A stretch of DNA of 64,000 bases from Caenorhabditis elegans. Its lineage: Eukaryota; Nematoda; Chromadorea; Rhabditida; Rhabditidae. How positions within the stretch are numbered: position 1 is the first letter of the stretch; each line of letters begins with the position of its first letter. Under the pieces are notes generated by a model that worked only from the letters and a program-made list of their open reading frames with translations, had not been told where the DNA came from and ran no database searches. Location: NCBI RefSeq assembly GCF_000002985.6, contig NC_003284.9, positions 7,316,001-7,380,000 of the forward strand. The letters run 5' to 3'. The position numbers and the translations under genes are program-made. Positions 9,164 to 62,855 of the stretch are shown in pieces.

Positions 9164-9166
9164 TAA

Positions 9167-28046: not shown

Positions 28047-28560
28047 ATGCACCAAGCCGGAAACATAAACGATCAAGCTGGACGATCCTCAAATTCTGAT
28101 GGGAATGCATCGGACGACGGACATCCACCAGCGGTAAGAAAATATTCAAGTGCACTTTTAATGAATAGTCGCCTACCACCTCCTCTAAGTATTGTCGCCT
28201 CTGAAAAGCTGACCAACAAATTTTCTACTTCAGCTGACACCAATCTTGTTGAAGTCGTATTTGAAAAATAGTGACGCAAAGTCACATCTGACTCTATCCA
28301 ATGCACATTCTATGCCAGCGGTTGGACTCGGAACGTGGCAGTCAAATGCAGAAGACGTGATTTCAGCGGTCAAAGCAGCAGTGAAAAATGGATACAGTTT
28401 GATCGATACGGCATCTGGCTACAACAACGAAGAATTCATTGGAACTGCTATCAAGGAAGTGATTGCAGAAGGCGTCGTGAAGAGAGAAGACTTGTTCATC
28501 ACTACAAAGGTACCAAATTTATTCTCTAGCTTACGATTAGTTAGTTTATAGCTTTTTGAA

Positions 28561-28565
28561 GGCTT
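28561..28565. repeat. Target-site duplication GGCTT, left
   Basis: GGCTT directly before the 5' LTR, repeated at 49719-49723 directly after the 3' LTR. A 5-bp duplication is normal for LTR retrotransposon integration. Confidence 0.93.
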
Positions 28566-29191
28566 TGTTGTGAGATGATCCCATCTCCCAATTATCTGGT
28601 ACTCTGAGACACTCGCGAATACTCCCATCGTGTTCGCCGTACCAGAAAACCTATAAACCGCTCCTTCCAGTCGCTCTATCTCCCCCTTTCTCTAATCTAA
28701 CGCGCGCCCTCATTTGAATCTCCCGCCAAGCTCAATGGTCTCGCAGCGAGTGTGCGCCGCGGGTCTCACCGCGCGCGCCCTCCTTGCTCGTCCTATTTCG
28801 CTGGCCTAAACTAGTTTCAACTCGACTCCCCTCACTCGTCTCGTCACCGCACCAGCGGCACGTCCTTTCTTTTATAATTCAATTCTTTTATATTTAATCA
28901 ATTCCCCTAATAGTTTATCACCCGCTTTAGCCGGTTGTACAGCAACCTTCCTACACGGAAGATGCTAACATCCGCTAATGAACACCTGATAACTATTCCC
29001 TAATCGACAGTTCCCTTCTCTATTATTCTTAGCTAATAAATGGGGTTTCATGGTAATATCATTCGTTACTCGTTCACACCGCTTATCCTCCTCTTCGCTC
29101 GGCACTCTGCAACCGCCAGTTCTCTCTTAGACTCTTCTTCCGGCTTGACCCCAGTTGCGGCTCCCCAACCCGCTACACTGGGCGGTCAACA
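28566..29191 (+). repeat. 5' LTR
   Basis: 626 bp, TGTTG ... CAACA. It differs from the 3' LTR at only two positions that I can find (A for G in GAGATGRTCCC, and C for G in ACTCGASTCCC). It has an AT-rich TATA-like segment (TTTATAATTC) near 28870 and AATAAA at 29035-29040, directly overlapping an ATG that opens a reading frame to 29225. Near the start GAGATG/CATCTC forms a small hairpin. Confidence 0.95.
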
Positions 29192-29209
29192 TGGTGCATT
29201 GACCGAACC
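29192..29209 (+). promoter_or_regulatory. Primer-binding site (tRNA, possibly Gly)
   Basis: The bases directly after the 5' LTR read TGGTGCATTGACC. TGG pairs with the CCA end of a tRNA. The first eight bases fit the 3' end of nematode tRNA-Gly (GCC) from memory, with two transitions in the next five. The Gly assignment is tentative. Confidence 0.55.
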
Positions 29210-29345
29210 ACCCCAGAGCTCCTAGTGACTCTGGAGTGGAATCGAGCCGTTGGGAAAGAGAGAGCTGTGTGCCCAGAACTAGAGTAGGAAAAAGTAGGAT
29301 CTGAACGGAAACGTGTGATCTGCCAGGACCTCTAATTTATTAGCG

Positions 29346-29795
29346 TCCGCTTCACGTTACTGCTTAATCTGGATCCCCCGGAGGAAGATCTTGATCACCT
29401 TCGGAGAAACCCCCCTCGGGGCCGCGGAGGCGATTTAATATCCCCGGAGGGACCAAGCGATAACTGTAATGACGAAGAGGTTCATGGACGATTCGCTTCC
29501 GCTTCACTTTACTGCTCAATCTGGATCCCCCGGAGGAGAGGAGATCTTGATCACCTTCGGAGAAACCCCACTCGGGGCCGCGGAGGCGATTTAATATCCC
29601 CGGAGGGACCAAGCGATAACTGTAATGACGAAGAGGTTCATGGACGATTCGCTTCCGCTTCACTTTACTGCTCAATCTGGATCCCCCGGAGGAGAGGAGA
29701 TCTTGATCACCTTCGGAGAAACCCCACTCGGGGCCGCGGAGGCGATTTAATATCCCCGGAGGGACCAAGCGGTAACGGTAATGACGAAGAGGTGC
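29346..29795. repeat. 156-bp tandem repeat in the leader, about 2.8 copies
   Basis: GC-rich direct repeats containing CTGGATCCCCCGGAGGA, GGGGCCGCGGAGGCGATT and CCCCGGAGGGACCAAGCG. GGATCC recurs at 29371, 29523 and 29679; the first copy is 4 bp shorter. Because 156 is divisible by three, a minus-strand frame stays open as a 52-residue repeat (29364-29768), probably by chance. Confidence 0.85.
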
Positions 29796-30110
29796 GTGGA
29801 CGACGACAGGACGCTAGCCAAGTTCGAGATATTATCTTTCGAGATATTCTCCTTCGGCTGCTGCTGCTTCTTGGCTCATGACGACGACGGGTCACTTGCT
29901 GGCCAACTTCGGGACATCTTCTCTTCGGAGAACCACTGCCCGCTGTTGGCCCACCGGGACGACGGGACGCTGGCCAATTTCGTGATCTTCTCCTTCATCC
30001 GCTTTTGGCTCTTGGCTCATGACAACGATCGGGATACTGACCAGCCGCTGCACACTTTCCGTCATCCGCTGGTCTCCAATCGGCTTCGACTCGGAATCCC
30101 CCGCGATTAA
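29796..30110. repeat. Imperfect short repeats after the 156-bp array
   Basis: Three diverged copies of a block with GGCTCATGACGACGACGGG, CTNGCCAA and TTC(TCC)TTC elements, roughly 60-75 bases apart. They keep a plus-strand frame open (29781-30110) in which LAHDDDGSLA-like words recur. No known protein; probably decayed tandem repeats. Confidence 0.5.
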
Positions 30111-30304
30111 GGTACATTTCTTGGCCATTTCTTCGACCGCACGATTTTCTTCTACTCCCAGCCAAAAATTTACTTGGCGGGCGAGAAAAACGCATCGAAA
30201 AAATAGAGACCGAATAAAGAAATGACACACATATCGTTCGGGATATCCAGAACATGAAGCAGATCACCCCCTTCGTTGATCATCGAAACTCCTCTCTCTC
30301 TCTA

Positions 30305-30522
30305 CGACACGACTTTGAATCTAAGCATCTTGACGTTTTCTTCTAGGGGGTTTCGTTCAGCATCTGCCTGCAAATACACCGGGTGCCATGCAATGTCAAA
30401 TTCATCCAAAAAATTATTTACTCCCACAGATTCTAAATCATGGGCGAGAGAATTACATGAAATTTTGAGATGGCGAACGCACCTTTAAACGATCCTGATG
30501 ATCAAGTTTCAAAACCGACGTC
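30305..30522 (+). repeat. Internal dispersed direct repeat, copy 1
   Basis: Begins CGACACGACTTTGAATCT and ends in GACGTC. Highly similar to 34892-35111, with small indels. Contains the shared block CATGGGCGAGAGAATTACAT. Confidence 0.85.
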
Positions 30523-33500
30523 TTTCGATTCGACCAGCATTTAAACCTGCAATAGCAGCAATTATTTGCTGACGAATCACTCTTCATCTCTCCTTATTCG
30601 ACTACGCGTCATTTGGACCCACTAAGCTCATAAGATATCCAAAATGGCAGCACAAGTAATTCAGAATTTGATCATTATTCGGAAGACAGCTAAAATGCGT
30701 TTTGCACTTAATGACGAATCTATCTTCTCCCTTTTTTCAATTTTTTCAGGCACTGATACAGGTTCACTGAGCTCAGGAAGTGACCAATCGTGTAGATTCC
30801 GGAATTAAAATACGCGTGGCTGAAGGAATCTGCATGCATTGACGCTCCCCAGAGTTTTGACGAATCCAGTCGGAGCCCATCCTTTCATCTAGTTGAGCGG
30901 TTTCTATTTACCCTTGAGCTGACTTCTCGTTGACTATTTTTCCCCAAAAATCTGTGACGAAACGCATCTGTGACAACTCTCACTAAATTCAGTGATTTTC
31001 CACCTCATATGGAGAAAATTATTGAAGAAATTGTTATCAAAATGTGATTTCAATTTAATTTTAACCAGAAAAAGTCAATTTTATCCGGAAATACTCCGAT
31101 ACACGCTGAAAACTCCTTAAAATTCCACTGAACCACCTCTCGAAACGATTGAAATTCAAATTTTGCGCGGGTTACGGTAGGCGGCGGTGTTTGCACAGAG
31201 TACGCAGAGTGAACATTAGTCTGAGGTCCCACCGAAATTCACACGAATTTTGGGATTTTTTGGGATTTCTACGGATTTTTGATTCATTTTAGCTCATTTT
31301 TTGTGTTTTCTCCTCTGTTTTTTCGAAACTTTTCGCAATGTTTTTTGTTTTTTCAATTGATCTCTTGAATATTCATCGTGAATTACAGTAAACAGCCGGA
31401 TCCCACCGAGAATGAGAAGCTCACACAGCAATACAGGACTCCCTCCTCTTCCAACAACCGCTCAGCTCCCACTTGTAAGATTTTTCGTTGAAAATATTAT
31501 TATCATTCAATTTAAAAAAGCTTATCTCACACTGAGAGACAGTCACCCTGATCTCTCAACCACGAATTTATCTCCAAAAGCCCGGCAGCCCCGGAGCACA
31601 GGGGATGAATTCAAACAACGAGTAAATTGGTTCTCGATCTGTGCTGGCTGGTACAGATCTGCCAAATGAGATTTGAAATTAACAATTTCACTCGTTACCG
31701 CAAATACATATAAAAAATTTTTTTTTTCAAAGTTTCGTAATAATTTTGGATACATCCCTTTTGAGATTAGTTATTTTATCGAAAATGATGATTAAACTTA
31801 AGTCACAAAAAAGACGGACCGAGCACAGCCTCTCTGTTTTTCACTCTGCTTAAATTAATTATCCATATACCTTTTGTTTGCTTATGCTTAAATCTCTCAC
31901 ATCTCACAACATCTTCTATAAAAACTCTGGTTTTACGAACGTTCTATTTTCTAGATGGAAGTGCCCACAACCGTCCCACAAAACTGAGGAAAAGGATTAG
32001 CCAACCGCTTCTCCCGAATCTCTTTGCGACGATCTCGGCCTACTTGCACGGGGAAGGAAAACATCCGAAAGACATCATCCGCTCAAGACACACTTGAGAG
32101 GTCAGTGACTTTTATTGAAGAAACACGATCTACAACAGAAAACGAAGAATTTTTGATATTAGAAAATGTTTTAAAAGAAATAAAAAATGATTTCGAAGGT
32201 TATGGTAGTGACTTCACAATTGCTGAGCACACTCAGTGAATGGAAACGCCATCAAACCACGAGGATCTCCTAATTTCTCAAGAAACGGCCCTAATAATCA
32301 AAAATTAATTCATTTCTTTTCCAGAGATCACCGAAATGTGCAGCAAGGTGCAAGTGACCGTGGAAGAATCCAAGCTGAAAGTGGATAGTTGAGACAAGTC
32401 ATCATCCGCTACCACCATAGCATCTCTCCACTACATCTGCGAAGCAATCGCAAACATACAGGGCATCAGCGACTTGCTACCAACCACTCGACCTAGATAA
32501 ACGACTTGGATGATTGCAACAGGGACCGGGATGCTGTACGAGCCTCCCTCGAGGACTTCATCACTCGCTGTACCCGGAACACGTGTTCCTCCGTGACTGT
32601 TCACGCTGTTGGAATTTTCCACGAAGTTCCATAGCGATGACAACGCAGAGAATCCACGCGATTCTGCACTCAGAAAAGGAGTCATGGATTGGGCTAGAGG
32701 TCAAGACAACTGGACTGAGCATTAAGCAGGCTGGATGGAGTACTATCCAAGCCAACAACCGCTAACTTGCCCATGTATCAGCATCCGGATCTCACCAACC
32801 GCTCTTCATGACCGCCGCGAACAATGCATTATCCGAAAGCTGTTTCAACTCTCCACAATCATCCTGATTTTCGGAACTTGAGTTATCCCGCTGAGGAAAT
32901 GCAAACGCTCGTCATCAATCTCGAACAACTGGTTCGGCATCCGCTTCACTCATCACAATAATAACAATGGCTTATCATCAACTGGCTCACAATCCTCAAA
33001 TTTCGAAACAACACTCAAATGGATCAATTGCCCGGACGCTAAAAGGAGGATTTCAGTGCGCAAGGATTATGAGGCGAGTTTAATTTTTTTTATTCTTTAG
33101 TCAAGGTATTGAAAGTTGTAAAGATGACCGAAAAACCGTAAACAACGCAACCCCAAACTTTCTTTTCGAAAAGAATAAGGACTCCGAACCCCCAACCAGA
33201 AAAATCTTACTGGTTTACAGGTATAGGGGCGCGGAACACAATAGACTAATGTAGACAACATCTGCTTTAGACCTAAACCCTTCATTCTCTCTAGAACTGT
33301 ATCGTTTTGGCGTGGCTCAACATGCTTACATATTTTCCACGTCTACTATAACTATTCATCACCCGCTTAAAATAAAATTATTGAAACTCGTCCGTCCTAT
33401 CCGCCAAAAAATTCTCCAAAAAAGCCAGAGGCTCAGTTCCATCCTAAATTTTTCAAAAAATTTTCCAAATAAATAAACCCTTTACGAGTAGTCTTATCAT

Positions 33501-34891
33501 TCCTTCAATCTCCTTCAAAAAATGAGTTTAGATACTCAATAATTATCTTTATCAATTCTCAATTGTAAATTTAAAAAAGGGGGTGAAAGGCACCAGCCTA
33601 CTTGTATCGAAACCTAAATCAATTTAATTTCCTGAAGCATCTCAAACAATTCGGAGCCGTGTTAATCACCTCCAGAAACTTAAAAGATGCCCTCACAATG
33701 GAAATTAAAACATAAACAACAAATAAATTATTATCTTTTGGAAAAGAAAAAAGTAGCACATCCGCTCTTTTTTCAAACAAAATTTCTTAGACAATCTCAC
33801 CTACATTTCCACAAAAGGTTCTCAAAATTTTTGGAATCTCACTAGTGAATATAGGAAGTATCTCAAAAAAGAAATTACAAAAATAATAATTACAACAGTT
33901 TCTTGCTCTTTGGAGAAGTGAGCAATACAGCCGCTTCTTAAAAAGAGATAAATATGAGTAACTTTTCTTATACGTCTAAAGACTGTTTTAATTAACACGT
34001 ACACACTTAGACTAATAGAGAAAATGCCATAATAAAGAAACTACAACAAAACTTAAAATCTAAAAAAGATTCTTCACAATTTCTTGTGTAGTAGTGACAT
34101 GGTAATACATACACTTCTAACATTAACACGAAATCACAAGAATCTAATCAAATAAATAAAAAGTTTCTTCGACATAAGAGCAGATACCATCCGCTTTTAT
34201 ACAAAAGTTTCTTCCCAACAATGACTCAAATAAGACTGAAGGATCGTTCGAAACATCTGAAGACTTAAGAAGACATTAGGAATTAACTCAAACAAGAATT
34301 TTTTAAACCTAAACCCCCGGAGAGAACTCACCTAATCGGAATAAGTGCTCACATGACACTTATATTCGTTAAAAAGTAATCACAAGGGAAATCACATAAA
34401 ATTTTAAATTATATAAATCCTTTAAAAATAATTTTTTATCACGAAGAGGTTACCAACCGCTTCAACTACAAGTTTCTTATGGTTTACTCACCACGAATAA
34501 TTGAGATCAGACTCCAATTAACACAAAGAGCATTCCAAAGAATCACAAAAAAAAACGGGTTGCGACAGCAACCTTTGCTGGTTAATAAAAACTTAGTTTA
34601 GTAATACAAGGTTACTAGGAATTCTGAGGCTAGTCTACGTCTTCTTAACTCTCGATCATTCAATGATACCACTGAGCTGACACGCGAAAAAGCTGTTATT
34701 CGAACTCAAAGAATGTTTATTATACCACGTGATCACTTAGCGCACAGTCAGAGTGGCAGAATGACACCGGCTATCAAGTAGACATCCGTGCTGACTACGA
34801 CTTTAGGACGTCGACATCCTATGACCGCTAGTTCAGAACATAATACAAACATCCTTCGAATTCGATTCCTTCCTCATATCACCATCCGCTT
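30523..34891. other. Decayed internal region of the retrotransposon
   Basis: About 4.4 kb with no long reading frame. It holds exon-like fragments beside acceptor-like signals: TTTTCTAG ending at 31953, and TTTTCCAG ending at 32324 followed by about 20 open codons. Short coding-like stretches at 31412-31669 and 32024-32239 have no recognisable domain. It may be a degraded pol region or captured host sequence; I cannot tell which. It contains 11 copies of the CAWCCGCT word. Confidence 0.5.
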
Positions 34892-35111
34892 CGACACGAC
34901 TTTGAATCTGACCATCTTGACGTTTTTTTCTAGGGGGTCTCGTTCAGCATCTGCCAGTAAATACACCGGGTGCCATGCTATCTCAAAACTCATCCTAAAA
35001 ATTCTTTACTCCCAACAGATTCTAAATCATGGGCGAGAGAATTACATGAAATTTTGGGATGGCGAACGCACCTTTAAACGATCCTGATGACCAATTTTCA
35101 AAGCTGACGTC
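34892..35111 (+). repeat. Internal dispersed direct repeat, copy 2
   Basis: Second copy of the 30305-30522 block, separated from it by about 4.4 kb and ending about 330 bases before the satellite. Confidence 0.85.
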
Positions 35112-35440
35112 AAATCAAAGTAAGATAGTGGTAATCAGGAACAGTAGTTGAGAAGACATAATAGGAAGACAAACTGACAAAACTCCAGAACATCCAAAAA
35201 CCTCAGTAAAATTAAACTAGACCGGTGAGAAGTCCACGAGTATGGTATGAGCTAGCGTAACAAATTTTAGAACAAATACGTTCCACGTCACCGATTACCC
35301 TATCGGTGGCTACAAAAACAATATTTGACTCTCCAAAAAATTTAAGCGCATAGTTTCCACCACAACTCACGAATCCACTAATTAACCAACAACAACAAAA
35401 AAAAAAAAACCTACTTACCTAGCCTTGATCAAGCTGTGGT
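35112..35440. other. Spacer before the satellite
   Basis: AT-rich, with an A-rich run of about 15 near 35395-35409. No feature recognised. Confidence 0.5.
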
Positions 35441-38400
35441 CGCCGGTCTCGCCTTGAGCGATTCCTTACCCTTAAATGGGCGCCGGTTTCTCTTTGAGCG
35501 ATTCCTTACCCTTAAATGGGCGCCGGTTTCGCTTTGAGCGATTCCTTACCCTTAAATGGGCGCCGGTTTCGCTTAGAGCGATTCCTTACCCTTAAATGGG
35601 CGCCGGTTTCGCTTAGAGCGATTCCTTACCCTTAAATGGGCGCCGGTTTCGCTTAGAGCGATTCCTTACCCTTAAATGGGCGCCGGTTTCTCTTTGAGCG
35701 ATTCCTTACCCTTAAATGGGCGCCGGTTTCGCTTAGAGCGATTCCTTACCCTTAAATGGGCGCCGGTTTCGCTTTGAGCGATTCCTTACCCTTAAATGGG
35801 CGCCGGTTTCGCTTTGAGCGATTCCTTACCCTTAAATGGGCGCCGGTTTCGCTTAGAGCGATTCCTTACCCTTAAATGGGCGCCGGTTTCGCTTAGAGCG
35901 ATTCCTTACCCTTAAATGGGCGCCGGTTTCGCTTAGAGCGATTCCTTACCCTTAAATGGGCGCCGGTTTCGCTTAGAGCGATTCCTTACCCTTAAATGGG
36001 CGCCGGTTTCGCTTAGAGCGATTCCTTACCCTTAAATGGGCGCCGGTTTCGCTTAGAGCGATTCCTTACCCTTAAATGGGCGCCGGTTTCTCTTTGAGCG
36101 ATTCCTTACCCTTAAATGGGCGCCGGTTTCGCTTAGAGCGATTCCTTACCCTTAAATGGGCGCCGGTTTCGCTTAGAGCGATTCCTTACCCTTAAATGGG
36201 CGCCGGTTTCGCTTAGAGCGATTCCTTACCCTTAAATGGGCGCCGGTTTCGCTTAGAGCGATTCCTTACCCTTAAATGGGCGCCGGTTTCGCTTTGAGCG
36301 ATTCCTTACCCTTAAATGGGCGCCGGTTTCGCTTTGAGCGATTCCTTACCCTTAAATGGGCGCCGGTTTCGCTTTGAGCGAGTCCTTACCCTTAAATGGG
36401 CGCCGGTCTCGCTTAGAGCGATTCCTTACCCTTAAATGGGCGCCGGTTTCGCTTTGAGCGATTCCTTACCCTTAAATGGGCGCCGGTTTCGCTTTGAGCG
36501 AGTCATTACCCTTAAATGGGCGCCGGTCTCGCTTAGAGCGATTCCTTACCCTTAAATGGGCGCCGGTTTCGCTTTGAGCGATTCCTTACCCTTAAATGGG
36601 CGCCGGTTTCGCTTTGAGCGATTCCTTACCCTTAAATGGGCGCCGGTCTCGCTTTGAGCGAGTCATTACCCTTAAATGGGCGCCGGTTTCGCTTAGAGCG
36701 ATTCCTTACCCTTAAATGGGCGCCGGTTTCGCTTAGAGCGATTCCTTACCCTTAAATGGGCGCCGGTTTCTCTTTGAGCGATTCCTTACCCTTAAATGGG
36801 CGCCGGTTTCGCTTTGAGCGATTCCTTACCCTTAAATGGGCGCCGGTTTCGCTTTGAGCGATTCCTTACCCTTAAATGGGCGCCGGTTTCGCTTTGAGCG
36901 ATTCCTTACCCTTAAATGGGCGCCGGTTTCTCTTTGAGCGATTCCTTACCCTTAAATGGGCGCCGGTTTCTCTTTGAGCGATTCCTTACCCTTAAATGGG
37001 CGCCGGTTTCGCTTTGAGCGATTCCTTACCCTTAAATGGGCGCCGGTTTCGCTTTGAGCGATTCATTACCCTTAAATGGGCGCCGGTTTCGCTTAGAGCG
37101 ATTCCTTACCCTTAAATGGGCGCCGGTTTCGCTTTGAGCGATTCCTTACCCTTAAATGGGCGCCGGTTTCGCTTAGAGCGATTCCTTACCCTTAAATGGG
37201 CGCCGGTTTCGCTTAGAGCGATTCCTTACCCTTAAATGGGCGCCGGTTTCGCTTAGAGCGATTCCTTACCCTTAAATGGGCGCCGGTTTCGCTTAGAGCG
37301 ATTCCTTACCCTTAAATGGGCGCCGGTTTCGCTTAGAGCGATTCCTTACCCTTAAATGGGCGCCGGTTTCTCTTTGAGCGATTCCTTACCCTTAAATGGG
37401 CGCCGGTTTCGCTTTGAGCGATTCCTTACCCTTAAATGGGCGCCGGTTTCGCTTAGAGCGATTCCTTACCCTTAAATGGGCGCCGGTTTCGCTTAGAGCG
37501 ATTCCTTACCCTTAAATGGGCGCCGGTTTCGCTTAGAGCGATTCCTTACCCTTAAATGGGCGCCGGTTTCTCTTAGAGCGATTCCTTACCCTTAAATGGG
37601 CGCCGGTTTCGCTTAGAGCGATTCCTTACCCTTAAATGGGCGCCGGTTTCGCTTAGAGCGATTCCTTACCCTTAAATGGGCGCCGGTTTCGCTTAGAGCG
37701 ATTCCTTACCCTTAAATGGGCGCCGGTTTCGCTTAGAGCGATTCCTTACCCTTAAATGGGCGCCGGTTTCGCTTAGAGCGATTCCTTACCCTTAAATGGG
37801 CGCCGGTTTCGCTTTGAGCGATTCCTTACCCTTAAATGGGCGCCGGTTTCGCTTTGAGCGATTCCTTACCCTTAAATGGGCGCCGGTTTCGCTTAGAGCG
37901 ATTCCTTACCCTTAAATGGGCGCCGGTTTCGCTTAGAGCGATTCCTTACCCTTAAATGGGCGCCGGTTTCGCTTAGAGCGATTCCTTACCCTTAAATGGG
38001 CGCCGGTTTCGCTTAGAGCGATTCCTTACCCTTAAATGGGCGCCGGTTTCGCTTAGAGCGATTCCTTACCCTTAAATGGGCGCCGGTTTCGCTTTGAGCG
38101 ATTCCTTACCCTTAAATGGGCGCCGGTTTCGCTTAGAGCGATTCCTTACCCTTAAATGGGCGCCGGTTTCGCTTAGAGCGATTCCTTACCCTTAAATGGG
38201 CGCCGGTTTCGCTTAGAGCGATTCCTTACCCTTAAATGGGCGCCGGTTTCGCTTAGAGCGATTCCTTACCCTTAAATGGGCGCCGGTTTCGCTTAGAGCG
38301 ATTCCTTACCCTTAAATGGGCGCCGGTTTCTCTTTGAGCGATTCCTTACCCTTAAATGGGCGCCGGTTTCGCTTTGAGCGATTCCTTACCCTTAAATGGG

Positions 38401-41400
38401 CGCCGGTTTCTCTTTGAGCGATTCCTTACCCTTAAATGGGCGCCGGTCTCGCTTTGAGCGAGTCATTACCCTTAAATGGGCGCCGGTCTCGCCTTGAGCG
38501 ACTCCTTACCCTTAAATGGGCGCCGGTCTCGCCTTGAGCGATTCCTTACCCTTAAATGGGCGCCGGTTTCTCTTTGAGCGATTCCTTACCCTTAAATGGG
38601 CGCCGGTTTCGCTTTGAGCGATTCCTTACCCTTAAATGGGCGCCGGTTTCTCTTTGAGCGATTCCTTACCCTTAAATGGGCGCCGGTTTCGCTTTGAGCG
38701 ATTCCTTACCCTTAAATGGGCGCCGGTTTCGCTTAGAGCGATTCCTTACCCTTAAATGGGCGCCGGTTTCGCTTTGAGCGATTCCTTACCCTTAAATGGG
38801 CGCCGGTTTCGCTTAGAGCGATTCCTTACCCTTAAATGGGCGCCGGTTTCTCTTTGAGCGATTCCTTACCCTTAAATGGGCGCCGGTTTCGCTTAGAGCG
38901 ATTCCTTACCCTTAAATGGGCGCCGGTTTCGCTTAGAGCGATTCCTTACCCTTAAATGGGCGCCGGTTTCTCTTTGAGCGATTCCTTACCCTTAAATGGG
39001 CGCCGGTTTCGCTTTGAGCGATTCCTTACCCTTAAATGGGCGCCGGTTTCGCTTTGAGCGATTCCTTACCCTTAAATGGGCGCCGGTTTCGCTTTGAGCG
39101 ATTCCTTACCCTTAAATGGGCGCCGGTTTCGCTTTGAGCGATTCCTTACCCTTAAATGGGCGCCGGTTTCGCTTTGAGCGATTCCTTACCCTTAAATGGG
39201 CGCCGGTTTCGCTTTGAGCGATTCCTTACCCTTAAATGGGCGCCGGTTTCTCTTTGAGCGATTCCTTACCCTTAAATGGGCGCCGGTTTCGCTTTGAGCG
39301 ATTCCTTACCCTTAAATGGGCGCCGGTTTCGCTTAGAGCGATTCCTTACCCTTAAATGGGCGCCGGTTTCGCTTTGAGCGATTCCTTACCCTTAAATGGG
39401 CGCCGGTTTCGCTTAGAGCGATTCCTTACCCTTAAATGGGCGCCGGTTTCTCTTTGAGCGATTCCTTACCCTTAAATGGGCGCCGGTTTCGCTTAGAGCG
39501 ATTCCTTACCCTTAAATGGGCGCCGGTTTCGCTTAGAGCGATTCCTTACCCTTAAATGGGCGCCGGTTTCTCTTTGAGCGATTCCTTACCCTTAAATGGG
39601 CGCCGGTTTCGCTTAGAGCGATTCCTTACCCTTAAATGGGCGCCGGTTTCTCTTTGAGCGATTCCTTACCCTTAAATGGGCGCCGGTTTCGCTTTGAGCG
39701 ATTCCTTACCCTTAAATGGGCGCCGGTTTCGCTTAGAGCGATTCCTTACCCTTAAATGGGCGCCGGTTTCGCTTTGAGCGATTCCTTACCCTTAAATGGG
39801 CGCCGGTTTCGCTTAGAGCGATTCCTTACCCTTAAATGGGCGCCGGTTTCGCTTAGAGCGATTCCTTACCCTTAAATGGGCGCCGGTTTCTCTTTGAGCG
39901 ATTCCTTACCCTTAAATGGGCGCCGGTTTCGCTTAGAGCGATTCCTTACCCTTAAATGGGCGCCGGTTTCTCTTTGAGCGATTCCTTACCCTTAAATGGG
40001 CGCCGGTTTCGCTTTGAGCGATTCCTTACCCTTAAATGGGCGCCGGTATCGCTTTGAGCGAGTCATTACCCTTAAATGGGCGCCGGTTTCGCTTAGAGCG
40101 ATTCCTTACCCTTAAATGGGCGCCGGTTTCGCTTTGAGCGATTCCTTACCCTTAAATGGGCGCCGGTCTCGCTTTGAGCGAGTCATTACCCTTAAATGGG
40201 CGCCGGTTTCGCTTAGAGCGATTCCTTACCCTTAAATGGGCGCCGGTTTCTCTTTGAGCGATTCCTTACCCTTAAATGGGCGCCGGTTTCGCTTTGAGCG
40301 ATTCCTTACCCTTAAATGGGCGCCGGTTTCGCTTTGAGCGATTCCTTACCCTTAAATGGGCGCCGGTTTCGCTTAGAGCGATTCCTTACCCTTAAATGGG
40401 CGCCGGTTTCGCTTTGAGCGATTCCTTACCCTTAAATGGGCGCCGGTTTCGCTTAGAGCGATTCCTTACCCTTAAATGGGCGCCGGTTTCGCTTAGAGCG
40501 ATTCCTTACCCTTAAATGGGCGCCGGTTTCTCTTTGAGCGATTCCTTACCCTTAAATGGGCGCCGGTTTCGCTTAGAGCGATTCCTTACCCTTAAATGGG
40601 CGCCGGTTTCTCTTTGAGCGATTCCTTACCCTTAAATGGGCGCCGGTTTCGCTTTGAGCGATTCCTTACCCTTAAATGGGCGCCGGTTTCGCTTAGAGCG
40701 ATTCCTTACCCTTAAATGGGCGCCGGTTTCGCTTTGAGCGATTCCTTACCCTTAAATGGGCGCCGGTTTCGCTTAGAGCGATTCCTTACCCTTAAATGGG
40801 CGCCGGTTTCTCTTTGAGCGATTCCTTACCCTTAAATGGGCGCCGGTTTCGCTTAGAGCGATTCCTTACCCTTAAATGGGCGCCGGTTTCGCTTAGAGCG
40901 ATTCCTTACCCTTAAATGGGCGCCGGTTTCTCTTTGAGCGATTCCTTACCCTTAAATGGGCGCCGGTTTCGCTTTGAGCGATTCCTTACCCTTAAATGGG
41001 CGCCGGTTTCGCTTTGAGCGATTCCTTACCCTTAAATGGGCGCCGGTTTCGCTTAGAGCGATTCCTTACCCTTAAATGGGCGCCGGTTTCGCTTTGAGCG
41101 ATTCCTTACCCTTAAATGGGCGCCGGTCTCGCTTTGAGCGATTCCTTACCCTTAAATGGGCGCCGGTTTCGCTTTGAGCGATTCCTTACCCTTAAATGGG
41201 CGCCGGTTTCGCTTTGAGCGATTCCTTACCCTTAAATGGGCGCCGGTCTCGCTTTGAGCGAGTCATTACCCTTAAATGGGCGCCGGTTTCGCTTAGAGCG
41301 ATTCCTTACCCTTAAATGGGCGCCGGTTTCGCTTTGAGCGATTCCTTACCCTTAAATGGGCGCCGGTCTCGCTTTGAGCGATTCCTTACCCTTAAATGGG

Positions 41401-44400
41401 CGCCGGTTTCTCTTTGAGCGATTCCTTACCCTTAAATGGGCGCCGGTTTCGCTTAGAGCGATTCCTTACCCTTAAATGGGCGCCGGTTTCGCTTAGAGCG
41501 ATTCCTTACCCTTAAATGGGCGCCGGTTTCTCTTTGAGCGATTCCTTACCCTTAAATGGGCGCCGGTTTCGCTTTGAGCGATTCCTTACCCTTAAATGGG
41601 CGCCGGTTTCGCTTAGAGCGATTCCTTACCCTTAAATGGGCGCCGGTTTCTCTTTGAGCGATTCCTTACCCTTAAATGGGCGCCGGTTTCGCTTAGAGCG
41701 ATTCCTTACCCTTAAATGGGCGCCGGTTTCGCTTTGAGCGAGTCATTACCCTTAAATGGGCGCCGGTTTCGCTTAGAGCGATTCCTTACCCTTAAATGGG
41801 CGCCGGTTTCGCTTTGAGCGATTCCTTACCCTTAAATGGGCGCCGGTCTCGCTTTGAGCGATTCCTTACCCTTAAATGGGCGCCGGTTTCTCTTTGAGCG
41901 ATTCCTTACCCTTAAATGGGCGCCGGTTTCGCTTTGAGCGATTCCTTACCCTTAAATGGGCGCCGGTTTCGCTTTGAGCGATTCCTTACCCTTAAATGGG
42001 CGCCGGTTTCGCTTTGAGCGATTCCTTACCCTTAAATGGGCGCCGGTTTCGCTTTGAGCGATTCCTTACCCTTAAATGGGCGCCGGTTTCTCTTTGAGCG
42101 ATTCCTTACCCTTAAATGGGCGCCGGTTTCGCTTAGAGCGATTCCTTACCCTTAAATGGGCGCCGGTTTCGCTTTGAGCGATTCCTTACCCTTAAATGGG
42201 CGCCGGTTTCGCTTTGAGCGATTCCTTACCCTTAAATGGGCGCCGGTTTCGCTTAGAGCGATTCCTTACCCTTAAATGGGCGCCGGTTTCGCTTTGAGCG
42301 ATTCCTTACCCTTAAATGGGCGCCGGTCTCGCTTTGAGCGAGTCATTACCCTTAAATGGGCGCCGGTTTCGCTTAGAGCGATTCCTTACCCTTAAATGGG
42401 CGCCGGTTTCTCTTTGAGCGATTCCTTACCCTTAAATGGGCGCCGGTTTCGCTTTGAGCGATTCCTTACCCTTAAATGGGCGCCGGTTTCTCTTTGAGCG
42501 ATTCCTTACCCTTAAATGGGCGCCGGTCTCGCTTTGAGCGAGTCATTACCCTTAAATGGGCGCCGGTTTCGCTTAGAGCGATTCCTTACCCTTAAATGGG
42601 CGCCGGTCTCGCTTTGAGCGATTCCTTACCCTTAAATGGGCGCCGGTTTCGCTTTGAGCGATTCCTTACCCTTAAATGGGCGCCGGTCTCGCTTTGAGCG
42701 AGTCATTACCCTTAAATGGGCGCCGGTTTCGCTTAGAGCGATTCCTTACCCTTAAATGGGCGCCGGTTTCTCTTTGAGCGATTCCTTACCCTTAAATGGG
42801 CGCCGGTTTCGCTTTGAGCGATTCCTTACCCTTAAATGGGCGCCGGTCGCTTTGAGCGAGTCATTACCCTTAAATGGGCGCCGGTTTCGCTTAGAGCGAT
42901 TCCTTACCCTTAAATGGGCGCCGGTTTCGCTTTGAGCGATTCCTTACCCTTAAATGGGCGCCGGTTTCGCTTTGAGCGATTCCTTACCCTTAAATGGGCG
43001 CCGGTTTCGCTTTGAGCGATTCCTTACCCTTAAATGGGCGCCGGTTTCTCTTTGAGCGATTCCTTACCCTTAAATGGGCGCCGGTTTCTCTTTGAGCGAT
43101 TCCTTACCCTTAAATGGGCGCCGGTTTCGCTTTGAGCGATTCCTTACCTTTAAATGGGCGCCGGTTTCGCTTTGAGCGATTCCTTACCCTTAAATGGGCG
43201 CCGGTTTCGCTTTGAGCGATTCCTTACCCTTAAATGGGCGCCGGTTTCGCTTTGAGCGATTCCTTACCCTTAAATGGGCGCCGGTCTCGCTTTGAGCGAG
43301 TCATTACCCTTAAATGGGCGCCGGTTTCGCTTAGAGCGATTCCTTACCCTTAAATGGGCGCCGGTTTCTCTTTGAGCGATTCCTTACCCTTAAATGGGCG
43401 CCGGTTTCGCTTTGAGCGATTCCTTACCCTTAAATGGGCGCCGGTTTCGCTTTGAGCGATTCCTTACCCTTAAATGGGCGCCGGTCTCGCTTTGAGCGAG
43501 TCATCACCCTTAAATGGGCGCCGGTTTCGCTTAGAGCGATTCCTTACCCTTAAATGGGCGCCGGTTTCTCTTTGAGCGATTCCTTACCCTTAAATGGGCG
43601 CCGGTTTCGCTTTGAGCGATTCCTTACCCTTAAATGGGCGCCGGTCTCGCTTTGAGCGAGTCATTACCCTTAAATGGGCGCCGGTTTCGCTTAGAGCGAT
43701 TCCTTACCCTTAAATGGGCGCCGGTTTCGCTTAGAGCGATTCCTTACCCTTAAATGGGCGCCGGTTTCGCTTAGAGCGATTCCTTACCCTTAAATGGGCG
43801 CCGGTTTCGCTTAGAGCGATTCCTTACCCTTAAATGGGCGCCGGTTTCGCTTAGAGCGATTCCTTACCCTTAAATGGGCGCCGGTTTCGCTTAGAGCGAT
43901 TCCTTACCCTTAAATGGGCGCCGGTTTCGCTTTGAGCGATTCCTTACCCTTAAATGGGCGCCGGTTTCGCTTAGAGCGATTCCTTACCCTTAAATGGGCG
44001 CCGGTTTCGCTTAGAGCGATTCCTTACCCTTAAATGGGCGCCGGTTTCTCTTTGAGCGATTCCTTACCCTTAAATGGGCGCCGGTTTCGCTTAGAGCGAT
44101 TCCTTACCCTTAAATGGGCGCCGGTTTCTCTTTGAGCGATTCCTTACCCTTAAATGGGCGCCGGTTTCGCTTTGAGCGATTCCTTACCCTTAAATGGGCG
44201 CCGGTCTCGCTTTGAGCGATTCCTTACCCTTAAATGGGCGCCGGTTTCTCTTTGAGCGATTCCTTACCCTTAAATGGGCGCCGGTTTCGCTTTGAGCGAT
44301 TCCTTACCCTTAAATGGGCGCCGGTCTCGCTTTGAGCGAGTCATTACCCTTAAATGGGCGCCGGTTTCGCTTAGAGCGATTCCTTACCCTTAAATGGGCG

Positions 44401-45420
44401 CCGGTTTCTCTTTGAGCGATTCCTTACCCTTAAATGGGCGCCGGTTTCGCTTTGAGCGATTCCTTACCCTTAAATGGGCGCCGGTCTCGCTTTGAGCGAT
44501 TCCTTACCCTTAAATGGGCGCCGGTTTCTCTTTGAGCGATTCCTTACCCTTAAATGGGCGCCGGTTTCGCTTTGAGCGATTCCTTACCCTTAAATGGGCG
44601 CCGGTCTCGCTTTGAGCGAGTCATTACCCTTAAATGGGCGCCGGTTTCGCTTAGAGCGATTCCTTACCCTTAAATGGGCGCCGGTTTCTCTTTGAGCGAT
44701 TCCTTACCCTTAAATGGGCGCCGGTTTCGCTTTGAGCGATTCCTTACCCTTAAATGGGCGCCGGTCTCGCTTTGAGCGATTCCTTACCCTTAAATGGGCG
44801 CCGGTTTCTCTTTGAGCGATTCCTTACCCTTTAATGGGCGCCGGTTTCTCTTTGAGCGATTCCTTACCCTTAAATGGGCGCCGGTTTCGCTTTGAGCGAT
44901 TCCTTACCCTTAAATGGGCGCCGGTCTCGCTTTGAGCGAGTCATTACCCTTAAATGGGCGCCGGTTTCGCTTAGAGCGATTCCTTACCCTTAAATGGGCG
45001 CCGGTTTCGCTTTGAGCGATTCCTTACCCTTAAATGGGCGCCGGTCTCGCTTTGAGCGATTCCTTACCCTTAAATGGGCGCCGGTTTCGCTTTGAGCGAT
45101 TCCTTACCCTTAAATGGGCGCCGGTTTCGCTTTGAGCGATTCCTTACCCTTAAATGGGCGCCGGTTTCGCTTAGAGCGATTCCTTACCCTTAAATGGGCG
45201 CCGGTTTCGCTTTGAGCGATTCCTTACCCTTAAATGGGCGCCGGTCTCGCTTTGAGCGAGTCATTACCCTTAAATGGGCGCCGGTCTCGCCTTGAGCGAC
45301 TCCTTACCCTTAAATGGGCGCCGGTCTCGCCTTGAGCGATTCCTTACCCTTAAATGGGCGCCGGTCTCGCCTTGAGCGATGCATTACCCTTAAATGGGCG
45401 CCGTCTCGCCTTGAGCGATT
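35441..45420. repeat. 9,980-bp satellite of a 40-bp unit inside the retrotransposon
   Basis: Head-to-tail array: 185 units of exactly 40 bp (35441-42840), one 38-bp unit (42841-42878), 63 more 40-bp units (42879-45398) and a 22-bp partial. Each unit runs CGCCGGTTTCGCTTTGAGCG then ATTCCTTACCCTTAAATGGG. A few variants recur: GCTTAGAGCG, TCTTTGAGCG, and GGTCTCGCTTTGAGCGAGTCATT; edge-type units have GCCTTGAGCG. TCGCT and AGCGA in the unit can pair as a 5-bp hairpin around TTG or TAG, and each unit boundary makes GGCGCC. Stops occur in all frames, so it is noncoding. There are no spacers, so it is not a CRISPR array. Confidence 0.98.
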
Positions 45421-45668
45421 CACCAAATAAGTAGCACTGGTAGCCTTGTACACCCTTCCTCTCTACTTTCCTCATAATTTTTTCTTCCTTTATCACCTTA
45501 ACCTCTTTTAAATTCTAATTTCTTTTAGGTTACTGGTTTAATTATTGTCTTTGGACAATCACCCTCATCTCTCCTAACTATCATTACTCTCGGATCTTCC
45601 CGATCTCCCTCACCGGGACGACGTCGCACGCTCAGAAGGCGGCACGACGATCCCACCAACACCAGCCA
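45421..45668 (+). promoter_or_regulatory. Gag leader with strong splice acceptor
   Basis: Pyrimidine-rich stretch ending TAATTTCTTTTAG at 45529, a good nematode acceptor, 140 bases before the gag ATG. It could allow a transcript from the 5' LTR to splice out the leader repeats and the whole satellite. The donor is not identified. Confidence 0.45.
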
Positions 45669-46049
45669 ATGGCGGGGAAGCCAACGAAAAAACGTACACG
45701 AGGACAGGTGTCCTTGGCGACACGTATCGTAGGCCCCCTCAAAAGGCGTATCAACCACAAGGTTGACGCAGCCAAGCGTATCTTGGCCGAGACTGAGGCA
45801 AAAATGGAAATTCTCCTGAACATGCCTCAGGATCAACTCGTCAGCAGCGAAGACTCGACTTACCTCGACGCACTACTGATTCGTCTCCAGACAATCTTAG
45901 TTGCGCTCGAAGGTATGCGCGAGCTTATCTCTGACAAATTCCGTGACCCGGAAATGATGGCCGACACTAATCGCCATCAATATCACCAGGAGGTGCTCGA
46001 CTACCTCGAAAAGTCATCAACCGCTAGATTCGTAGAGCTAGATTCGTAG
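45669..46049 (+). pseudogene. Gag N-terminal segment, frameshifted at its end
   Basis: ATG-started frame of 126 codons: a basic start (MAGKPTKKRTRGQ) and a helical region rich in Glu and Leu. The stop comes just after a 14-bp tandem duplication (46024-46037 and 46038-46051, CTAGATTCGTAGAG twice). The duplication shifts the frame away from the next segment, which starts in frame 46082. Confidence 0.7.
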
Positions 46050-46081
46050 AGACTCACGACATCCAAAAGCTTGAGACTGAA

Positions 46082-46793
46082 ATGAGAAGCCGAAACATCC
46101 CCATCACCCACTTCGATCCATATCTGCTAGCAACCACCGATGTAGAAACAGGAGCCACCACCGAGGACGATGCCAACGACGAGGAAAGAAGAGACATTGA
46201 GGCAACGATCGAGGACCACGCTCAAAACAATGGGCCGTCCAATCATCGTGTCATCTCCGATCTTCGAACTCCTCACGGTAGCACGCCATCTACAGGAACT
46301 CCGCGTCTATCTTCACCAGGCATGGTCTGGGACAACGAGGGAATGAGCCTGCACGATGAATTACAAATCGCGAACTTGCTCGACCCCGCGAACCCACAGA
46401 GATCTCCAATGGCTCCTGCTGCTCCAACATCATCTGCTGCTGCTCCGACTCTAACTGCTGCTGCTCCGCCGTCATCTGCCAGTGCTCCGATGTCATCCGC
46501 TGCCGCTTACCATCTACATGGTCAACATGGTCAACAACTCGGAGCTCCAGCTCATACCAATGGTGGTACTACTCGCCTCCAGCAGCCGCTTGAACATAGG
46601 ATCCAGACAACTACACAAGGGGTACTCCAAGGGAAACGTGAGCAGCTCGAACAGGGCCCTACGGAGACCCCACTTCTCGTCCAGCAAGCCCCTACAACTA
46701 CGGGCCCAGGTACGCCAATTACGCCACAAAGAGTTCCGAATGCGCGTGCCTTGCAAACACATCAGGCTATAAACAGCCAGGTGAGTTATCCAA
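46082..46793 (+). pseudogene. Gag middle segment, low complexity
   Basis: Open frame continuing the Gag region: an acidic stretch (TEDDANDEERRD) and then an Ala/Pro/Ser-rich linker of repeated SSAAAP-type words. The frame itself stays open to 46900, but Gag-like sequence passes to another frame near 46780-46800, around a 19-nt segment bounded by GT and AG. Confidence 0.6.
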
Positions 46794-47663
46794 GTGCAGG
46801 AGCACAGACTCCTGGCGGCTATCGAAGCTATTGCCACAAGTCAGAGTCAAATGCAATCAGAGTTAACTTCACAAGGCCGCTTAGTACACGTGCTCATTGA
46901 CAGAATGGAAGCTAAGGAAAAGTTAATTGTGGAACCCAAAATTTTAAATACTACCGTCGCCGAAGAGACCAGTAGACCAGCTATGCCACAGCCAACCCAT
47001 GAAACGGCTCAGCAACAGCAAACCACTGACTCCGAGTACGAATATGAGTTTGATTCCGACGACAATAACCAGCAACCGCTTACTCCTCAAACACGTACTC
47101 AAATCCGATACATCGAGGTGAAGAATAATGGTAGTCACGATACTCAAAACTTATTAAAGTACCTCGGCAAATATGATGGTAACTCAAATATTGATTCATT
47201 CCTTACCGACTTCAAAGAATCGGTAATGGAAAACGATAATCTAAATCACGCAAATAAATTTATGATCTTAAAAACTCACCTATTAGGCAAAGCACGTGAC
47301 TGTATCTCTCGAGACCACGTAGCGGCTAAGGCAATTGAGAAGACTATTGCTTCACTGCAAGCAGTGTTTGGGAAGGATGAAAACAAAACCAGCCTTTTAG
47401 CCCAGATCCACACTATCGGTTTTCCACAGTCAGACGTTAAGGGAATGCGTAGGGCGATCGCCAAACACACTATTCTTGCCGAACAGCTAGTGAACATCGG
47501 ATTAGCAGCGAATGACGAGAGAACTTTTACACCTCTCACATCTCGCCTACCACCCGCTATCCGCACAAGAGTCACTCAGTTTTGGGGCTTGAAAGGTGAA
47601 AACGCGACATACCAAGAAATCTTTGACTATGTCACTACTTGTGTTGACGACATGGCAAGATAA
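46794..47663 (+). pseudogene. Gag core with DUF1759-like region
   Basis: 290 open codons without an ATG near the start, so it is the continuation of the upstream segments in a shifted frame. It begins with a coiled-coil-like stretch, then a polar acidic linker (SEYEYEFDSDDNNQ). The conserved core has IDSFLTDFKESV, LLGKARDCISRDHV, KTIASLQAVFGKDE and SRLPPAIRTRVTQFW. This is the arrangement of BEL/Pao Gag (DUF1759), which forms the particle shell. It contains two strict copies of the CAWCCGCT word or its one-base variants, read in different frames. Confidence 0.72.
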
Positions 47664-48941
47664 TCAATCTTGGCCCTTAGACATTTACCAACCGCTGACA
47701 ATCAAACCGAAGTGGGACCACTAGGGATCCCATACTCAGGTCAACCCAATCACGCCAACGCCACCACCCAGAATCAGGGGGACGGGAAATCTAACGATCA
47801 AGGGCTGCATAACACGGGAGGGTGTATGTTGAAAGAACACCAGGGAGACATGAACAATTATCCACCATCCGCTCCACCGGGTCAGCAGTTTTTTCGAGCT
47901 AGCCGGGAAGGCCGGCATTTGGGACAAAACCAGCAATAAGCGGTTTTGGGCAGGCAGGGGAGCACATATACGGAGCCCCCTGCCAACAGCTGTTTTGCCG
48001 CCAGCCTCAAATGTTTCTGTTCTTAACCCAAATACTCTTTCTCCAACATCCGCTATCCCCACTATCAACCCGCTTCTTACCTTTCCTCCAACACTTTCCG
48101 ATTCTGCACAAGTCCTAGCAAAGTCAGAAATTGAACATTTCGCAGCACTCATTTCAAGATCAAACCCAGCACACCAGCTGGCGGCGATGTTTGAAAAGAT
48201 TGCGCAAGACAGCCGGTTACCTTTCATATACAGGTGTACTAAAGAATACAAACGTCTCTTTTTTCCTCATACAGTTTTTGGGACATGGTTATTACTTTTG
48301 ACACATCTACGAGCCACTGTGCTCAATATGAAAACCTCAACCTCCGCGAATTGCTCTTTATCTGGCTTCAACGGTGTAGTTACTCAAATATATTTTGTAT
48401 TCCAAGCACATCAGAAAGAAAGAGCCTCTTACCCAATGCTCATCTTATCAACCGCTGGAATACAACCCATTGCCAGAAACCCCGAGCGAGTGCTCCTCCA
48501 CAAGTCAGACCAAGTAGGCATAGAGTCCACCCGCTTTGAAAGAACTCTAATCCCTGCATCGGTACTACTTGATCGAGGAACACTACTCTTAAACGTTCAG
48601 TATGTCATAGAGAGAATTCTAGGATTCATAGGACACTTAGTGTCTGGAAATTGCGTCAATAAGGTGCTAGGAAACGTTGTCAAAAGGTCAAAAACGCCAA
48701 TTCTCGCATTTCAAAGCTCAGCCTTTTGGCATGAGCCGAGAAAGCCTGATGGATGCGGTAGACCGTATAACATCGTCGACTTTCCATCTGCAAAAACCTT
48801 ACTCCGCTCCTCCAGAAACTCGCTAAGTACCGTGTTCCCAGAATACCTCCAATGTCAAACTAGAACAATAATCCTAAGCCCCATTTTCAATTTTTTTCTT
48901 TTTACCATAACCCCTTAATCCCCACTACTTCTACGATTTAA
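47664..48941 (+). pseudogene. Decayed region after Gag
   Basis: No zinc-knuckle, protease or polymerase motif. A 308-codon frame is open at 47995-48918, but it starts on TTG and its translation looks patchwork; only the first part (SEIEHFAALISRSNPAHQLA) resembles Gag-like helices, and a FWHEPRKPDG stretch is faintly like the BEL/Pao connection region. Best read as rearranged remnants. Confidence 0.4.
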
Positions 48942-49100
48942 AACGCCCGCTTAGATTTACACGAAAGGGTAGGACAAAAGGATAATTTCGAAAACCCCGA
49001 CTTAGACCAAGTCCACGTTGACAGTGAGGATGAAGTTACACTACTTCCTTCACACAACGACGGCCGTCACGTCGACGTTTTCAACCCCGGAGTGTTGTGA
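48942..49100 (+). pseudogene. C-terminal polyprotein remnant ending in the 3' LTR
   Basis: Open frame of 52 codons after a TAA at 48939, acidic (DQVHVDSEDEVTLLPSHNDG), stopping at TGA within the first eight bases of the LTR. In LTR elements the polyprotein often ends at or just inside the 3' LTR, so this is probably the tail of a lost Pol. Only the tail is present. Confidence 0.45.
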
Positions 49101-49718
49101 GATGGTCCCATCTCCCAATTATCTGGTACTCTGAGACACTCGCGAATACTCCCATCGTGTTCGCCGTACCAGAAAACCTATAAACCGCTCCTTCCAGTCG
49201 CTCTATCTCCCCCTTTCTCTAATCTAACGCGCGCCCTCATTTGAATCTCCCGCCAAGCTCAATGGTCTCGCAGCGAGTGTGCGCCGCGGGTCTCACCGCG
49301 CGCGCCCTCCTTGCTCGTCCTATTTCGCTGGCCTAAACTAGTTTCAACTCGAGTCCCCTCACTCGTCTCGTCACCGCACCAGCGGCACGTCCTTTCTTTT
49401 ATAATTCAATTCTTTTATATTTAATCAATTCCCCTAATAGTTTATCACCCGCTTTAGCCGGTTGTACAGCAACCTTCCTACACGGAAGATGCTAACATCC
49501 GCTAATGAACACCTGATAACTATTCCCTAATCGACAGTTCCCTTCTCTATTATTCTTAGCTAATAAATGGGGTTTCATGGTAATATCATTCGTTACTCGT
49601 TCACACCGCTTATCCTCCTCTTCGCTCGGCACTCTGCAACCGCCAGTTCTCTCTTAGACTCTTCTTCCGGCTTGACCCCAGTTGCGGCTCCCCAACCCGC
49701 TACACTGGGCGGTCAACA
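49093..49718 (+). repeat. 3' LTR
   Basis: 626 bp, two differences from the 5' LTR. Starts TGTTGTGAGATGGTCCC (a perfect GAGATGG/CCATCTC hairpin) and ends GGTCAACA. AATAAA lies at 49562-49567, overlapping an ATG at 49567 whose frame runs through the LTR end into the host exon. The bases before it (AACCCCGGAG) are a poor polypurine tract. Confidence 0.95.
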
Positions 49719-49723
49719 GGCTT
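49719..49723. repeat. Target-site duplication GGCTT, right
   Basis: Matches 28561-28565. Together with the LTR end it reads CAACAG followed by GCTTGG, which recreates an AG acceptor at the host exon start. Confidence 0.93.
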
Positions 49724-50435
49724 GGACTAATGAACTTGCTCCTGGTAGACTGGAGGGAGCACTTCGTGATTCTCTCAAGAAACTTCATCTAGAATACGTT
49801 GACTTGTATCTTGCTCATATGCCAACCGCATTCAGTGATGACATGAGCCAAAAAATCGAATCTTCAGTAGAAGACATCTGGCGTCAGTTTGATGCAGTCT
49901 ACAAAGCCGGACTTGCCAAGGCTGTCGGTGTCTCCAACTGGAACAACGATCAGATTCGGTAACTTCCTATGCCACGTTGGGAAGCCCCGGTCGAGTGGAT
50001 TTTACTCTTTCTAATGGACAGTAAGTAATGATGATAAGTATGGTTTTTAAAAACAATTTTTCAGCAAATTAGATTGGGCTTCTGCTCCATCTGAGTTGCG
50101 TGATGAAAATGTGCTGGATCTCGCTAAAAAAATACCACAAGAGCCCCGCTCAAATTCTTCTTCACTACGCCCTTGAGCGTGGAATCGCCATCATTCCAAA
50201 GTCAGTGAATGAAACCCGTATTAAGGAGAACTTCGAATTGTTTGACTTTGAACCCACTCAGAATGAAATTTCAAAGCTCGAAGGAAGCAAAATTTCCCAA
50301 CGTCTATTCCTCCAAGATTTGTGAGTTATCAATAACATTTCATGTTAATCTTTTTAATTCAGCACGATCGGCCACAAAGAAGATGCATTTGCTACTGGCG
50401 GAACTAGATCCTTCCTGAAATTACACATTTCTTAA

Positions 50436-62783: not shown

Positions 62784-62855
62784 TGGAGGTATGGGGAATT
62801 GAACCCCAGCCCTCTCCCATGCTAAGGGAGCGCTCTACCACTGAGCTATACCCCC
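62784..62855 (-). tRNA. tRNA-Ala (anticodon AGC), second copy
   Basis: Reverse complement of the gene at 7753-7824, identical over 72 nt: same acceptor, D arm, TTAGCAT anticodon loop and T arm. The flanks differ, so it is an old duplicate whose sequence is kept by selection or conversion. Confidence 0.97.

Follow-up and report, generated by a model that had tools for sequence, protein, structure and literature searches.

How does a 10-kb satellite come to lie inside a retrotransposon? The question is raised by a locus in the middle of the X chromosome of Caenorhabditis elegans. We analysed 64,000 nucleotides of this chromosome (N2 X:7,316,001-7,380,000; hereafter the window, whose coordinates we use throughout), in which a long terminal repeat (LTR) retrotransposon of 21,153 bp, LTR to LTR, carries a tandem array of 40-bp units that makes up 47.2% of the element. 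The answer that we consider probable is that a short, built-in array grew to about 250 units in this pol-less copy of the Cer9 group, mainly after insertion. This is a true satellite birth within a retrotransposon, and a well-bounded one. The sister copies of the element still hold the seed array, which makes the birth of the satellite traceable. Moreover, many wild strains of this model animal have been sequenced, and alleles of one insertion could be compared among them. Such a comparison could separate satellite growth inside chromosomes from growth during reverse transcription.

The 40-bp array and the element that contains it

Tandem Repeats Finder (TRF) reports a single array of period 40, with 249.7 copies over 9,985 bp (96% matches, score 18381). 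It is thus a satellite in the usual sense, a long head-to-tail array of one unit. We scanned the genome (100,286,401 bases in 7 contigs) with 31 letters of the unit, accepting at most 3 mismatches, and found 249 forward matches, 0 reverse matches, and 0 matches of the control. The same pattern gave 249 matches in the window, all of them (249/249) within the array, where chance predicts 0.00. Since the genome and the array have the same number of matches, there is no unit elsewhere in the genome at this threshold.

The element has the paired TG...CA LTRs and the target-site duplication of an LTR retrotransposon. Its two LTRs mismatch at 2 positions, start with TGTTG, finish with CAACA, and have GGCTT on each outer side. 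A preliminary description of the locus had reported clean LTRs, a 5-bp target duplication and 249 units of 40 bp accounting for almost half of the element, and its coordinates were exact. The element is organised as follows:

28561..28565, + strand: target-site duplication, left copy (GGCTT), by sequence inspection
28566..29191, + strand: 5' LTR, 626 bp, by LTR comparison
29192..35436, + strand: leader from the 5' LTR to the array, ~6.2 kb, by scans for open reading frames (ORFs) and repeats
35437..45421, + strand: array, 249.7 units of 40 bp in a single orientation, by TRF and pattern scan
45519..47663, + strand: gag region with three overlapping ORFs, by ORF and domain scan
45528..45536, + strand: GGTTACTGG, found in the window copy and in the III, V1, X:17.12, Cer9-1 and Cer8-1 copies introduced below
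45544..45559, + strand: conserved short hairpin ATTGTC-TTTG-GACAAT in the interval from array to gag, by sequence comparison
47854..49092, + strand: remaining internal region, where ~4 kb of pol present in the V and III copies are missing
49093..49718, + strand: 3' LTR, 626 bp, by LTR comparison
49719..49723, + strand: target-site duplication, right copy (GGCTT), by sequence inspection

The longest ORFs of the leader have 123-181 codons (29336-30263). The leader also contains three tandem units of 156 bp (29339-29803) and two direct repeats of ~220 bp (30302-30522 and 34891-35111). In the window, GGTTACTGG has an acceptor-like TTTCTTTTAG just upstream. The gag ORFs span 45519-46049, 46028-46900, and 46785-47663, and the third one matches DUF1759 with 22.6 bits, under the curated cut-off of 25.4. 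None of the four window ORFs that we scanned contains the protease, reverse transcriptase or integrase domains of an autonomous element, in line with the preliminary description of the element as non-autonomous.

A search with the LTR gave at least 33 genome matches. From these we retrieved five more copies that have both LTRs (II:2.16 Mb, III:13.23 Mb, V:8.83 Mb, V:8.87 Mb, and X:17.12 Mb) and one site where an LTR stands without partner (II:2.05 Mb). The window element aligns with the II, III, V, and X:17.12 copies over 7.0-9.9 kb at 89.7-93.9% identity, which makes it kin to named Cer9 copies (Cer8/Cer9 clade, BEL/Pao). We assigned the Cer names by place and size from Table 1 of PMC4367959, which is based on an older assembly release. 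In that table the II copy is Cer9-1, and the V copies are 'Mixed Cer8 and Cer9 sequence with LTR (cer9)' and are described as identical in sequence. Both V copies are indeed identical across the stretch of 474 bases around the array that we compared. The same paper lists the II and V elements among the targets of HRDE-1 nuclear RNA interference, which it reports as absent from the X chromosome with few exceptions.

An ORF of the III copy encodes Peptidase_A17 (E 4.9e-56), RVT_1 (1.8e-07), and an integrase zinc-binding domain, which identifies this copy as BEL/Pao. The ~4 kb of pol found in the V and III copies are missing from the window, II, and X:17.12 copies. By its sequence, the window element belongs to the Cer9 group, as a copy without pol. 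Since the three pol-less copies align unbroken over the junction of the loss, this form has apparently been copied to several sites. The window and II copies have target duplications of their own (GGCTT and TATAT, respectively). The leader of the V copy has two ORFs of 210 and 166 codons (749-1911 of the stretch analysed for that copy) without Pfam match, and this part of the leader is missing from the window copy.

Short arrays at the same place in related copies

All five sister copies have an array before gag, at the site of the window array (5/5), and these arrays span 152-291 bp. They consist of 7.8 units of 37 bp in the III copy, 9.0 units of 26 bp in the V copy (and in the second V copy by identity), 6.8 units of 38 bp in the X:17.12 copy, and 5.8 units of 26 bp in the II copy. 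The left edge of the array, around TAGCCTTGATCAAGCTG, is common to the window and all sister copies, as is a related unit core, TCGCYYTGAGCGAT. The right edge, leading into AAATAAGTAGCACTGG, is common to the window, III, V, and X:17.12 copies. The II copy is without it, and its array passes directly into gag sequence. The state that resembles the sister units, TCGCCTTGAG, occurs in 7 out of the 250 window units, namely the one at the left end, the four at the right end, and two in the interior. The window array is therefore as exceptional as first described, with 249.7 units against 5.8-9 in the sister copies. Relative to Cer9 and mixed Cer8/Cer9 elements, the window copy stands out by being pol-less, a trait it has in common with the II and X:17.12 copies, and by having ~250 units instead of 6-9.

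These arrays bear directly on the claim that the element carries and spreads a 10-kb satellite as cargo. An unrelated satellite captured by the element might explain why the array is almost half of it. Yet the 40-bp unit is found nowhere else in the genome at the threshold used, and the short arrays that the sister copies have at this site are related to the window array and share its edges. We reject foreign cargo on these grounds and regard it as very improbable. Because the sister arrays span 152-291 bp and the 40-bp unit lies at one genomic place, we conclude from the copies compared that the Cer9 family spreads a short seed array and that the 10-kb block belongs to this copy alone.

More distant relatives have arrays too. 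Cer9-1 (V:5.18 Mb) and Cer8-1 (V:18.44 Mb) are 68-78% identical in the aligned gag stretches. The former has 5.9 units of 66 bp at the same place. The latter has units of 28 bp, 3.1 and 5.5 copies in two stretches 99 bases apart. BLAST gave no match over the arrays among Cer9, Cer9-1, and Cer8-1. In 6/6 copies tested, the array ends 86-140 bp upstream of GGTTACTGG and 102-155 bp upstream of a hairpin of the form ATTGTC-N4-GRCAAT. This set includes the window, III, V1 (the first V copy), X:17.12, Cer9-1, and Cer8-1 copies; the II copy is without that part and the second V copy was left out. The loop of the hairpin is TTCG in the III, V1, and X:17.12 copies. Across the aligned copies, the slot of the array is conserved and the sequence of the unit is not.

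Such a slot could indicate a selected functional module, involved in packaging, insulation or silencing, that expansion has strengthened. Arrays before gag in 7/7 other copies checked (the five sisters, Cer9-1, and Cer8-1), despite the turnover of units, and the conserved hairpin beside the array in 6/6 copies tested fit this idea. So does the RNA of three window units, which folds far better than shuffles (z -5.03). Nevertheless, the RNA of two sister arrays does not stand out in its folding (z -1.42 and -0.80), the units of Cer9, Cer9-1, and Cer8-1 are dissimilar, and a change found in 45 out of the 247 forty-base units (15G>T) disrupts the TCGC/GCGA stem. The published data do not make the array centromere-like either: by the criterion that Subirana 2015 uses for satellites of holocentric worms, a CENP-A affinity above the median, it scores low, at 0.638 where the median is 0.922 (PMC4595182 Table 1). 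We thus find a function strengthened by expansion improbable.

A looser version seems to us somewhat less doubtful, and we propose it tentatively: in the slot that precedes the hairpin and gag in Cer8/Cer9, the unit would be replaced over time, repetitiveness itself would be functional, and the X satellite would be a runaway case. If so, repetitiveness would serve the dimerisation and packaging of RNA, or template switching. The gypsy element of Drosophila has an array of repeats binding Su(Hw) in the leader before gag. The window array resembles it by having short repeats at the same relative place, and differs from it by having no known protein partner and a unit that is not kept across the clade.

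We also considered expansion driven by hairpins in DNA. Compared with shuffles, the DNA of window units folds only mildly better (z -1.98 and -2.03 for the two strands), and that of sister units is ordinary (z -1.10, -0.05, and 1.38). The best folding is found in the unrelated units of Cer9-1 (z -4.95). Since these fold best and have not expanded, the strength of hairpins does not explain the growth of the window copy, and we discarded this possibility.

The preliminary description knew of no LTR element with a block of this kind, but there are precedents in plants. Short arrays borne by Ogre elements of Lathyrus grew into satellites, including in pol-less elements (as reported in PMC7004042), and the minisatellites of Gmr9/GmOgre in soybean reach 149 monomers per locus (as reported in PMC3305785). 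The Cer9 copies show the same combination of short sister arrays at a fixed place and an expanded, related unit. The likeness with Ogre/Tat thus concerns short arrays fixed in position within a family of LTR elements, with occasional expansion, also in pol-less members. In Ogre/Tat, which are plant Ty3/gypsy elements, the array lies downstream of gag-pol, whereas in the window element, an animal BEL/Pao, it lies upstream of gag. Also, a single copy has expanded here, in the middle of the X chromosome. Given its BEL/Pao kin and an array 5' of gag, the window satellite works like those of the Ogre type but is not one of them. The process is therefore known from plants, and what is new is the position before gag, the BEL/Pao host, and a single runaway copy in an animal. 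Among the papers listed in our search, titles and the beginnings of abstracts revealed no evident precedent of BEL/Pao elements with tandem repeats or satellites.

Growth of the array and its timing

The composition of the array bears on how it grew. Its 248 interior units fall into 18 types, and the main variable sites among the 247 forty-base units are 19T>A (94 units) and the aforementioned 15G>T. Blocks of 7 units are repeated 29 times, compared with a mean of 2.2 in permutations (maximum 8, 100 permutations), and blocks of 5 units are repeated 79 times, compared with a mean of 28.2 (maximum 49). Near the right end, the seven-type series CBDACBE is found in two tandem copies and a partial one. 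We searched for higher-order periodicity and dismissed it: mean identity is flat with lag, and the excess is limited to the repetition of blocks. Worm satellites are reported to grow by duplication of fragments of 100-300 bases (PMC4595182), and this fits the repetition of blocks in the window array.

These observations suggest the following scenario. In the Cer9-group lineage of BEL/Pao, a short array is built into the leader, some 100-120 bp upstream of the conserved hairpin and of gag. One member without pol inserted in the middle of the X chromosome, into a duplicate of an aldo-keto reductase gene, presumably with the help of enzymes from related copies that have pol. There, a handful of units would have become ~250 through repeated duplication of multi-unit blocks, presumably by unequal sister exchange or replication slippage. 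Growth would most likely have been mainly posterior to the insertion, and the length of the array may still change.

This length has a published history. The array is already in print as a satellite of the C. elegans X chromosome, at position 7,351,421, with 9,929 bp and 248 repeats in release WS201 (PMC4595182 Table 1). The 40-base motif is also that of X-1, a probe for fluorescence in situ hybridisation (FISH) that is stated in PMC9258534 to be the earlier 'X center' probe. Table 1 of this latter study gives 6.65 kb for the array in the long-read assembly of VC2010, which is derived from N2. With the TRF settings of those authors we obtained 9,981 bp in the window, and program settings are thus not the cause of the difference. 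A length of 6.65 kb instead of 10 kb could mean that the array, or its length, is an artefact of assembly. Against this, the motif is present in the VC2010 assembly, the FISH probe on X shows no secondary loci (PMC9258534), and WS201 lists nearly as many repeats as the window, even if the exact length is uncertain. An artefact is hardly credible to us.

The main texts of PMC4595182 and PMC9258534 contain the word 'retrotransposon' 0 times and use only satellite and tandem repeat terms. Our search of the literature, made of titles and the beginnings of abstracts and mostly excluding subscription papers, found no link from the satellite to a retrotransposon. The available text of PMC5850821 mentions neither Cer8 nor Cer9 (0 mentions of each), that of PMC10634987 has 0 mentions of Cer9, and neither has anything on the insertion in the window. 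Our results also trace an X-center target used in FISH back to a retrotransposon.

When did the array grow? We dated the element with a mutation rate of 2.7e-9 per site per generation, with which the two LTR differences amount to ~0.6 million generations. Within the array, only 6 changes are confined to a single unit. In a different scenario, the array would have expanded during reverse transcription, by template switching between co-packaged RNAs, and the copy would have integrated already long. The counts of private mutations are compatible with it, and the unit length and variant differ among sisters (26, 37, and 38 bp), as if arrays were rebuilt at copying. Expansion by template switching was also proposed for the plant Tat elements by Macas in 2009 (as cited in PMC7004042). 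On the other hand, no sister array exceeds 291 bp, so such an expansion would have to be exceptional, and both the excess of repeated blocks and the different length in VC2010 point to changes in the chromosome. We consider an array that was long upon integration unlikely. On balance, the data favour growth in the chromosome: the sisters have at most 9 units, and the length of the array differs between assemblies.

Several points weigh against a built-in array that grew mainly after insertion. There are fewer private changes per base in the array (6 in 9,985 bp) than differences between the LTRs (2 in 1,252 bp), and the difference is not significant (P = 0.22); growth after insertion, one of the two options of the preliminary description, is favoured rather than proven. 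The longest repeated block, 11 units, equals the maximum of 100 permutations (11), which leaves single long duplications unsupported. The length given for VC2010 derives from a different assembly, and either a true change or an assembly error may underlie it. That the window copy obtained its reverse transcriptase in trans is something that we infer. Finally, the X:17.12 copy is a less straightforward sister. We looked for its target duplication and saw none, and its LTRs differ at 14 out of 507 positions, with 121 gap columns, and belong to different subtypes. Given the differing subtypes and the lack of a visible duplication, this copy is probably recombinant or chimeric.

Insertion site and other observations

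At a 3' splice site, the element interrupts a copy of an aldo-keto reductase gene (28228-28509 and 49720-50440). PF00248 matches both exon pieces that flank the element. The upstream exon finishes with ...DLFITTK, the downstream exon starts with AWTNEL, and the end of the LTR together with the duplicated G restores an AG acceptor. The neighbouring gene copy (25509-26545) is 85% identical in the exon compared and appears intact where inspected. Relative to it, the interrupted copy has ~108 bp missing and a one-base difference in length that shifts the frame, and for these reasons it looks like a pseudogene. A predicted ORF with a hydrophobic N-terminal stretch (49567-49962) has its ATG in the 3' LTR and continues into the host exon.

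Outside the array, the element has a motif in a single orientation: CANCCGCT occurs 30 times in sense and 0 times in antisense in 11,168 bases (28566-35436 and 45422-49718). Second-order Markov simulations give 1.2 occurrences on average and never more than 5 in 500 runs, and the flanks (42,847 bases) have 2 on each strand. The sense/antisense counts are 30/0 in the III copy, 48/0 in V1, 31/0 in X:17.12, and 17/0 in II. Thirteen other BEL/Pao loci (7 kb each, including Cer8-1) have 0-2 sense copies, and Cer9-1 at V:5.18 has 0. The sites are found in the LTRs, the leader, and the gag region; V1 additionally has 10 in its pol part. Our guess is that CANCCGCT is a dispersed motif for RNA recognition. 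The fraction of aligned CA[ATC]CCGCT sites that are intact, relative to CG-matched controls, is 0.86 against 0.67 in the III copy, 0.91 against 0.72 in X:17.12, 0.70 against 0.63 in V1, and 0.67 against 0.76 in II. These results are mixed, with the II copy below its controls, and we did not retain conservation as a sign of selection.

Another tandem array accompanies a Pao match at V:14.76 Mb. It has 22.5 units of 49 bp (8087-9211 of the stretch), 3.2 kb downstream of a match to a Pao peptidase, and we found no LTR-like direct repeat in the 9.9 kb examined. Its 49-base unit is that of the published FISH satellite V-3, with 0 mismatches out of 49 (motif as given in PMC9258534). Lastly, the window has two tRNA-Ala (AGC) genes on opposite strands, at 7753-7824 and 62784-62855.

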